Shown here piece by piece: positions 830 to 3,423 of a stretch of 64,000 nucleotides of DNA. A model generated the notes under the pieces. The model searched no databases. It was not told the DNA's origin and saw only the letters and a program-made list of their open reading frames with translations. The number at the start of each line of letters is the position of its first letter. Position 1 is the stretch's first letter. The position numbers and the translations under genes are program-made. Source of the stretch: Natronocalculus amylovorans (GTDB taxonomy: Archaea; Halobacteriota; Halobacteria; Halobacteriales; Haloferacaceae); contig NZ_JAKRVX010000002.1 of the NCBI RefSeq assembly GCF_023638035.1, forward strand, positions 1 to 64,000, given 5' to 3'.

Positions 830-2002
830 ATGAAAGACGTCTACGTGATCGGGGCAGGTCAGTCACCATATGGCTCTTTTCCCGACGAAACGTATCTCTC
901 ACTGTTTGATACTGCGTTTGATTCGCTTCTTAGAAGTGTCGGTGACGGATTTTCTCCCGGGCAGATAGATGAGGCATACCTAGGGACGCTCGGCGTTGGT
1001 GGTCGCCAGATTGGACTCAGCGCACCAGCAGTAACGGAATATGTTGGTCTACATGGAATACCGACAACACGGATTGAAAATGCCTGTGCAGCGAGCGGCT
1101 ATGCGTTCAGACAAGCAGTGGCTGCTGTTCGATCGGGGATGGCAGATGTGGCACTTGCTGGGGGGTATGAAGTGATGACAGATACGAGCGCAGATCAGAC
1201 AAAATGGTGGCTCGGCGTCAGCGGTGAGATGGAGTACGAACGGATGAGTGGAACAACGTTTGCTGGTGTCTATGCACAGATGGCAAGCGCACATATGAAA
1301 AAACATGGCACGACAGTAGAAGACCTGAGCCGGGTTGCGGTCAAGAATCATGCCAACGGTGCAAAGAATGAGAAGGCGCACCTCCAATTTGACTGTACAC
1401 TTGATGACGCAGTGAATGCACCACTGGTTGCTGACCCGTTAAATCTCTATCATTGCTGTCCAACAAGCGATGGCGCAAGCGCGGTACTCGTCGCTACATC
1501 GGAGGTTGCTCGTGAGCTGTCTGTACCGATGATTCGTGTTGCAGGAACCGGTGCCTCAAGCGGTCGGGTGGGGCTATTCCAACGAGAAACTCTCACACGT
1601 ATCCCCGCAACTGTTCGAGCGGCCACAGATGCGTATGCTGAGGCAGGGGTGGATCCGGATTCGATCGACGTTGCAGAGCTGCACGACTGTTTTGCGATTG
1701 CTGAACTGCTCGCATATGAGGATTTAGGGTTTTGTGAGCGTGGCGACGCAGGGGCATTCATTCGGGCTGGTGAGACGAACCCAGATGGATCGCTTCCAAC
1801 GAACACGAGCGGTGGCCTCAAATCAAAAGGACATCCGATCGGCGCAACTGGGACTGGCCAGATTGTCGAATTGGTATCGCAGCTCAGAGGAACCGCAGCG
1901 GTTCAGGTTTCAGATCCAACGTACGGATTGGCACACAATGTCGGTGGAAGCGGAGGCGGTGCAACTGTGGCAATTCTTGAGCGAGTGGAGGGGAGACGAT
2001 GA
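830..2002 (+). CDS. Thiolase-family acetyl-CoA C-acyltransferase
   Basis: A 390-residue thiolase of the archaeal/SCP2 type, expected to condense or cleave acyl-CoA thioesters in the cytoplasm. The nucleophilic cysteine is Cys86 in ENACAASG, and the GHP motif (SKGHPIGATGTG, around residue 330) supplies the histidine. Near residue 370 the C-terminal loop reads HNVGGSGG rather than the CxGGG of classical thiolases, as usual in this archaeal subgroup. Its stop overlaps the next start by 4 nt (ATGA), so it is translationally coupled to the HMG-CoA-synthase-like/DUF35 fusion. In archaea, thiolase, HMG-CoA synthase and DUF35 protein form one complex that channels acetoacetyl-CoA. Here the pair may act on another acyl-CoA. 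The true substrate is unknown. Confidence 0.9.
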   Translation: MKDVYVIGAGQSPYGSFPDETYLSLFDTAFDSLLRSVGDGFSPGQIDEAYLGTLGVGGRQIGLSAPAVTEYVGLHGIPTTRIENACAASGYAFRQAVAAVRSGMADVALAGGYEVMTDTSADQTKWWLGVSGEMEYERMSGTTFAGVYAQMASAHMKKHGTTVEDLSRVAVKNHANGAKNEKAHLQFDCTLDDAVNAPLVADPLNLYHCCPTSDGASAVLVATSEVARELSVPMIRVAGTGASSGRVGLFQRETLTRIPATVRAATDAYAEAGVDPDSIDVAELHDCFAIAELLAYEDLGFCERGDAGAFIRAGETNPDGSLPTNTSGGLKSKGHPIGATGTGQIVELVSQLRGTAAVQVSDPTYGLAHNVGGSGGGATVAILERVEGRR

Positions 2003-3423
2003 GAGGTATTCTTGAAGCCGCGATATACGTCCCACGTTGGCGGCTTAAAACGGCAAACATTTCTGAGACGTGGGGGCAGTCGACAGCCAAAGGCATTGAT
2101 GAGAAAGCCGTGCCAGCGGCTGATGAAGACACGTTGACGATGGCAATCGAAGCCGTTGAACGTCTCTTTTCAAACTCGACAGCCGATCGAAATGACGTTG
2201 ATCACGTTGCAGTTGCAACGACCACACCACCGCTTGCTGAAGGTGACCTGGTAGCCAAACTCCGTACTGCAACTGGGCTGCCAGCCAATGTGCGAACAGC
2301 AACCCTGACCCAACACACTGCCAGTGGCGCAGAGGCACTTGCAACTGCAATCGACAGGGATGGGTTGTCGATCGTCGTCTGCAGCGATTATCCAGTTGGG
2401 ATACCAGCAACAACGGACCATCCCCTTGGAGCAGGTGCCGCAGCAATGCTCATTGGTGAGGATGCAAGGACTGCAGTGTCTTCGGTTGGCTGGTACAGCC
2501 TTGATGCACCAGGGATTCGATTTCGGACTGCTGACTCGGTGCAGTCGCTCGGGATAACCAACTATGAGAGAGAGACAATCATCACTGCGGTAACTGCTGC
2601 AATGGAGAACACGGCTACCGATCGCAGCATCGATTATGCCGTATTACACCAACCGAACGGAACACTCCCATATCGGATTGCACGATCGCTATCGATTGAT
2701 ACAAAAAAGCTCTCCCACGGACTGGTCGTCAAGACCATCGGTGATGCAGGCACAGCTACTGTTGCGATCGGACTGCTCAAGGCACTCAGCGAAGCAACTA
2801 CGGGAGAAGACACCCTCGCCGTATTCTATGGTGGTGGAACCGCTGCTGCATTCAATTGTACGGGATCGCTAAATGTGAGTGGACTCCTCGATTTTGATGA
2901 GACAGAGTCTCTCACATACGCGACATATCTCCGACAGCGAGGGTACCTCGGCACTGAACAGATCACGGGTGGAGGTGCAAATGTAAGTCTTCCAACATGG
3001 CAGCGGTCGCTTGATTCACGGTATCGGCTCGTTGCAGGTCGCTGTCCGCTGTGTGATTCGATCTCATTTCCACCGGATGGGGCCTGTCAGACCTGCCATG
3101 AGCGGGTTTCGTTTGAACACGTACCTGCCGAACGTGAGGGAACGATCGTCGCAGCCTCTGTCATTGGACATGGCGGTGCACCACCGGAGTTTACCACATA
3201 TCAGCAACGGAGTGGGAGGTACGCTGCTGTGATCGTTGAGCTACCTGTTGGTGATCAATCAGTTCGAGTGCCTGCACAGCTCACAGATATCGATACTGAT
3301 GAGGTCGCGATTGAGATCGGAGACACTGTTCGATCGACAATCCGCCGGATATACGAACAAGAAGGTGTTGTACGATATGGTGTGAAATTCACACCGAACA
3401 TGAAGAACAGACAGACGGACTAG
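1999..3423 (+). CDS. HMG-CoA synthase-like protein fused to a DUF35 OB-fold/zinc-ribbon domain; active site degenerate
   Basis: A 474-residue fusion. Residues 1-330 resemble HMG-CoA synthase/KAS III. Residues 335-474 are a DUF35 module with a zinc ribbon (Cys349, 352, 363, 366) and an OB fold. In archaeal HMG-CoA synthases these are separate proteins that form a complex with thiolase. The expected nucleophile motif (ACxAGT) reads TQHTASGAEAL around residues 105-114, with no cysteine. The His motif is kept (HQPNG, His217), but the Lys that normally follows is Thr, and the usual Asn is Asp249 (IGDAGTA). I infer a non-condensing or scaffold role, or a changed reaction, with the upstream thiolase as the active partner. 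It overlaps the thiolase gene by 4 nt. Confidence 0.85.
   Translation: MRGILEAAIYVPRWRLKTANISETWGQSTAKGIDEKAVPAADEDTLTMAIEAVERLFSNSTADRNDVDHVAVATTTPPLAEGDLVAKLRTATGLPANVRTATLTQHTASGAEALATAIDRDGLSIVVCSDYPVGIPATTDHPLGAGAAAMLIGEDARTAVSSVGWYSLDAPGIRFRTADSVQSLGITNYERETIITAVTAAMENTATDRSIDYAVLHQPNGTLPYRIARSLSIDTKKLSHGLVVKTIGDAGTATVAIGLLKALSEATTGEDTLAVFYGGGTAAAFNCTGSLNVSGLLDFDETESLTYATYLRQRGYLGTEQITGGGANVSLPTWQRSLDSRYRLVAGRCPLCDSISFPPDGACQTCHERVSFEHVPAEREGTIVAASVIGHGGAPPEFTTYQQRSGRYAAVIVELPVGDQSVRVPAQLTDIDTDEVAIEIGDTVRSTIRRIYEQEGVVRYGVKFTPNMKNRQTD

Follow-up and report, generated by a model that had tools for sequence, protein, structure and literature searches.

A haloarchaeal pseudo-HMG-CoA synthase fused to DUF35, the putative non-catalytic partner of an adjacent SCP2-type thiolase

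Introduction

In complexes that combine a thiolase with an HMG-CoA synthase (HMGS) or an HMGS-like protein, a DUF35 protein bridges the thiolase and the synthase (PMC12329534, PMC6392133). The complex of M. thermolithotrophicus (6ESQ), with an AACT, an HMG-CoA synthase (HMGCS) and a DUF35 part, is of this kind. PhlACB (PpATase; 5M3K, 5MG5) is a bacterial C-acyltransferase with a DUF35-type bridge, in which PhlC is the only catalytic subunit while PhlA and PhlB are required for a functional complex, and one continuous cavity spans the three subunits (PMC6392133). In PhlA, Gly and Cys stand at the positions of the HMGS Cys and Glu (PMC6392133). Other systems consist of an SCP2-type thiolase fold and a DUF35 partner (the benzoylsuccinyl-CoA thiolase BbsAB, 7PXP; Ltp2/ChsH2; the Sal/Shy aldolases) and take part in breaking down aromatic or steroid CoA esters (PMC12329534). 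The phenylacetate pathway uses PaaJ, a classical thiolase made of a single protein (PMC9493321), and the phenylacetate pathways of haloarchaea were described as incomplete in a 2026 survey (PMC13186573).

Here we analyze a gene pair of Natronocalculus amylovorans, located in the first 64 kb of contig NZ_JAKRVX010000002.1 (hereafter the window), which encodes a thiolase and a fusion of a pseudo-HMG-CoA synthase and DUF35. The pair has its three parts in common with the 6ESQ complex. It differs in that the synthase half has no catalytic Glu, Cys or Asn, the synthase and DUF35 form a single chain with the gene order thiolase, synthase-DUF35, and the canonical HMGS of the genome is encoded elsewhere. 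PhlA likewise has neither Cys nor Glu and contains a GDAG motif, but PhlACB is made of three separate proteins. BbsAB, Ltp2/ChsH2 and Sal/Shy, unlike the haloarchaeal pair, contain no HMGS-like part. An HMGS-like subunit without the catalytic Cys is thus already known from PhlA; new are the fusion, its breadth and its catabolic setting. No paper on haloarchaeal fusions of this type was found in a literature search that covered mainly freely accessible papers.

Organization of the gene pair

The thiolase gene (830-2002, forward strand) encodes an SCP2-type thiolase of 390 aa with the nucleophile Cys86, the HDCF motif (His285/Cys287) and the GHP motif (His335). Among solved structures, the AACT of 6ESQ comes closest to it in sequence (E 8.7e-78). 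The fusion gene (1999-3423, forward strand) is an intact open reading frame of 474 aa with an ATG start, comprising a pseudo-HMG-CoA synthase (aa 1 to about 320) and a DUF35 part with zinc ribbon and OB fold (aa about 335-466). Both genes share the sequence ATGA (1999-2002, forward strand), which holds the thiolase stop and the fusion start. The coupling by a 4-bp overlap to an intact thiolase with Cys86, as put forward in the original prediction, was therefore confirmed.

The DUF35 part (3019-3396, forward strand) consists of a Cys4 zinc ribbon and an OB fold that carries the motifs GGAPPEF and RYGxK. It matches 6esq_E over its length (E 1.7e-11), and the four zinc-ribbon cysteines (C349, C352, C363, and C366) are invariant among the fusion orthologues. 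The zf-ChsH2 profile scores above its own cut-off, while the OB part reaches 20.4 bits and stays below its cut-off of 27.1. Upstream of the thiolase gene lies a membrane-protein-like open reading frame (299-700) with no Pfam match. Scans for promoters and terminators gave nothing that clearly exceeded shuffled sequences.

Active site of the pseudo-synthase

In an alignment with the HMGCS of M. thermolithotrophicus (6esq_I, E 1.4e-25), the nucleophile motif FACKAG falls on QHTASG of the fusion. The nucleophile position, which the original prediction had located at residues 106-107 and had read as lacking a Cys, is thus occupied by Thr107 (codon 2317-2319, forward strand). The Glu of the SESH motif corresponds to Thr75 (codon 2221-2223, forward strand), and the catalytic Asn is replaced by Asp249 within GDAG (codon 2743-2745, forward strand). 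The catalytic His is kept (LHQPNG), with the motif reading HQPNGT compared with HQPNGK in HMGCS. The losses of Cys and Asn, the retained His and the exchange of Lys for Thr had all been recognized before and hold in the alignment; the loss of Glu had been overlooked. The archaeal HMG-CoA synthase models TIGR00748 and NF003274 score below their curated cut-offs (144.5 against 244 bits and 107.9 against 353 bits, respectively). It would be a mistake to annotate these fusion genes as HMG-CoA synthase.

The AlphaFold2 model of the fusion (pLDDT 82.4) places residues 1-318 in the fold of 6esq_I (Z 40.0, rmsd 2.5 over 313 residues) and also close to PhlA of 5M3K (Z 38.8). Like the non-catalytic subunit PhlA, the fusion has lost Cys and Glu and is predicted to keep the HMGS fold.

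Conservation of the family

Among 391 haloarchaeal genomes, 258 contain a match to the fusion protein at a threshold of E 1e-3 and 226 still do at 1e-60, with Haloarcula vallismortis, Halorubrum saccharovorum, Natrialba asiatica and several Haladaptatus among the holders; the other 133 have no match at all. We inspected 41 fused loci, i.e., this protein and 40 further orthologues. At the Cys position, the 40 further orthologues have Thr or, more rarely, Ala or Pro, and Cys occurs there in none of the 41; the Glu position is likewise never Glu (0/41), and Asp stands at the Asn position in the 40 further proteins. Because the losses of Cys and Glu are common to the 41 orthologues, chance or a sequencing error can be rejected. 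HMG-CoA synthase activity by way of another cysteine was also rejected, as no member aligns any Cys to the site. The His position is more variable, with His in most members of the clade of the fusion studied here and mostly Gln in a second clade; Thr occurs as well.

In 41 of 41 loci the thiolase gene immediately precedes the fusion gene on the same strand, so that all three parts are always encoded as thiolase plus fusion. In the thiolase, Cys86, His285, Cys287 and His335 are kept throughout, save for one unreadable cell (X). The overlap of the two genes measures 4 bp in 37 loci and 1 bp in three, and was not determined in the remaining one. Mean pairwise identity rises from 48% in the pseudo-synthase half through 58% in DUF35 to 74% in the thiolase. 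The pseudo-synthase half is not in decay, since it has its own set of conserved residues: R174, R176, Y189, R191, P224, R226 and D249 are each conserved at 93% or more, and most of them differ in HMGS. We are therefore dealing with a family and not with an oddity, and the observation is stronger than the original prediction had it.

The same residues are an argument for an enzymatic function of the fusion itself, in which a re-modelled His/Arg/Tyr pocket would act on a CoA intermediate channelled from the thiolase, for instance by hydrolysis or isomerisation. We regard this as very unlikely, given that the His is replaced by Gln or Thr in many members, that Cys and Glu are absent everywhere and that PhlA, the solved relative without the Cys, plays no catalytic part. 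The original prediction had offered two readings, a fused pseudo-synthase serving as scaffold of the thiolase or a new CoA chemistry. The former, a pseudo-synthase as thiolase partner or scaffold, fits all findings; the latter has nothing in its favor beyond the conserved, re-modelled pocket, and chemistry is to be expected in the thiolase.

Canonical HMG-CoA synthase and order of events

The genome contains a separate gene for a canonical, halo-type HMGS (884 bits, cut-off 800) at a distance of about 510 kb. The possibility that the fusion is the sole HMGS of the genome was thereby rejected. A halo-type HMGS was found in all eight pseudo-synthase genomes that were checked, in seven above the cut-off and in one just below it (789 of 800 bits). 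Four other haloarchaeal genomes (G021, G217, G285, and G382) have no good match to the halo-type HMGS; their HMGS is of the archaeal kind, retains all four residues (Glu, Cys, His and Asn) and is encoded in the gene order synthase, thiolase, DUF35. Because the true archaeal HMGS and the halo-type HMGS are found in different genomes, and the pseudo-synthase occurs together with the halo-type, the archaeal HMGS was apparently displaced by the halo-type enzyme, and a relative of the former complex seems to have persisted without synthase activity.

In nine genomes, separate genes encode the thiolase, the pseudo-synthase and DUF35, in this same order, and Cys and Glu are absent here too. A tree of the synthase and DUF35 parts together gathers the fusions in one clade (97/86) beside this unfused group and the true HMGS, while a tree of the synthase part alone does not clearly support a single origin of the fusion. 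As the unfused sister group already has no Cys, catalysis was most likely lost before the fusion took place. PhlA groups with the true HMGS on the tree of the synthase part, apart from the haloarchaeal family, which suggests that the Cys was lost independently, with the caution that PhlA forms a long branch; with the same caution, a common origin of the two losses was considered and is disfavored by the tree.

The separate HMGS also bears on another reading, according to which the pair would serve the mevalonate pathway as acetoacetyl-CoA thiolase and feed the distant halo-type HMGS, with the dead synthase as a leftover scaffold. The AACT of 6ESQ is indeed the nearest solved thiolase, and the parts resemble the archaeal mevalonate complex. 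All haloarchaea are expected to require mevalonate, but 133 of the 391 genomes have no match to the fusion. Two further SCP2-type thiolases are encoded in the same genome, the canonical HMGS gene is some 510 kb away, and the neighbors in relatives are catabolic (see below). All of this makes a role in mevalonate synthesis unlikely.

Gene neighborhood and link to phenylacetate

Pfam and NCBIfam served to name the gene families shared between the loci. In the clade of the fusion studied here, enoyl-CoA hydratase (ECH), acyl-CoA dehydrogenase (ACAD), 3-hydroxyacyl-CoA dehydrogenase (3HCDH) and aldehyde dehydrogenase genes are found nearby, and seven loci contain PaaA/PaaC-like or PaaD genes, often together with UbiD-type decarboxylases. 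The second clade lies partly inside haloarchaeal paa clusters, which also contain PaaK (830 bits, cut-off 700), PaaC, PaaD, PaaI, MaoC and a classical thiolase. At least one of the ECH, 3HCDH and ACAD families is present in 20 of 20 fusion loci and, in the same genomes, in one of 20 control stretches taken about 90-200 kb off. This contrast is overstated because the fusion loci themselves served to define the families. Across the 391 genomes, 193 have both the fusion and PaaA/PaaC, 33 the fusion only, 22 paa only and 143 neither, giving an odds ratio of 38 that is uncorrected for kinship. Both lie within 25 kb of each other in 43 of the 93 genomes for which both positions were listed.

The locus in the window has no β-oxidation or paa neighbor, although the contig starts at position 1 and thus shows nothing further upstream; the genes around the pair (DUF418, DoxX, a PAS histidine kinase, a GFO/IDH oxidoreductase, a lactate permease, and a luciferase-like protein) are unrelated. 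PaaABCD of the same genome is located on another contig (L203:10091-12641, G000:C14). The haloarchaeal PaaK family gave no match in the genome of N. amylovorans, and a full phenylacetate pathway in this genome was therefore rejected. At six loci of relatives (L032, L035, L037, L038, L041, and L043), divergent PaaA/PaaC-like oxygenases and UbiD-type decarboxylases surround the thiolase-fusion pair, and these genes perhaps belong to an undescribed aromatic pathway.

The third reading takes the pair for a Friedel-Crafts acylase like PhlACB, a C-acyltransferase whose acceptors would be phenolic or other compounds and whose thiolase subunit would move acyl groups. The pair and PhlACB have the same three parts, and the HMGS-like part of PhlACB likewise has no Cys or Glu and an Asp at the Asn site. 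However, the haloarchaeal thiolase keeps the full SCP2 thiolase set including HDCF, while the residues listed for the PhlC cavity include Tyr298 and no second Cys (PMC6392133). The haloarchaeal sequences are also closer to 6ESQ than to PhlA and PhlC, and the loci of relatives are β-oxidation-like. We therefore consider an acyltransferase highly improbable.

Proposed role of the pair

We propose, with a probability of roughly 70%, that the pair (830-3423) is a degradative, heteromeric thiolase for 3-oxoacyl-CoA, with the dead synthase and DUF35 as a structural partner that completes the cavity. The thiolase subunit would perform the chemistry, presumably the cleavage of a 3-oxoacyl-CoA by Cys86 as nucleophile and the HDCF and GHP residues, a direction and a substrate that we infer. 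The fusion and the thiolase may assemble into a physical complex as in 6ESQ and PhlACB, with DUF35 as the bridge, and the fusion of the two domains would fix the ratio of synthase half to DUF35 at 1:1. The dead synthase half would make no HMG-CoA; it would provide structure and possibly part of the CoA/acyl cavity at the interface. In relatives, the pair would carry out β-oxidation-like steps on CoA-activated acids, frequently in or beside the degradation of phenylacetyl-CoA (Paa). Against this proposal count the locus in the window with its unrelated neighbors, the lack of a haloarchaeal PaaK match in the genome, the 33 genomes that have the fusion but no PaaA/PaaC, and six loci in which a second, classical thiolase next to the pair could be the PaaJ.

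The scaffold part of this proposal, which the original prediction had anticipated, is well supported by inference from the family-wide loss of Cys, Glu and Asn, the adjacent intact thiolase and the separate canonical HMGS, and has a direct precedent in PhlA. Both this precedent and the link to β-oxidation and phenylacetate genes go beyond what had been noted before. If the proposal is right, an essential biosynthetic complex was re-used for catabolism along a traceable path, from a true HMGS complex through an unfused subunit without the Cys to the fusion. Candidates for the missing steps of haloarchaeal phenylacetate degradation are the pair itself and, in relatives, the nearby MaoC and aldehyde dehydrogenase genes.

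More specifically, the pair could be the as yet unassigned thiolase of the phenylacetate or related ring-cleavage pathways of haloarchaea, with the family-specific arginines of the dead pocket binding the distal carboxylate of a C8 or C6 dicarboxylic acyl-CoA. The pair would then take a role like that of PaaJ in the paa clusters of relatives, as two genes instead of one, but some of these clusters contain a classical thiolase as well. We consider this narrower assignment rather unlikely; it would mean that a dead active site was turned into a specificity pocket for a neighboring enzyme.

Other HMGS-like lineages

The true archaeal HMGS operons (L189, L199, L200, and L206), with Glu, Cys, His and Asn kept, lie in haloarchaeal genomes without a halo-type HMGS and illustrate clearly the apparent replacement of one enzyme by another. 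A second pseudo-HMGS lineage forms a separate clade (100/100) with the gene order synthase, DUF35, thiolase (L188:4997-6115, L192:7096-8142, L193:9418-10449, L195:6638-7642, and L201:5895-6974). Here the Cys is replaced by Ala, Pro or Glu and the Glu by Val or Thr. Finally, a long-branch pseudo-HMGS (L202:4870-7095) has Trp at the nucleophile site and Phe at the Asn site and adjoins a diverged thiolase.
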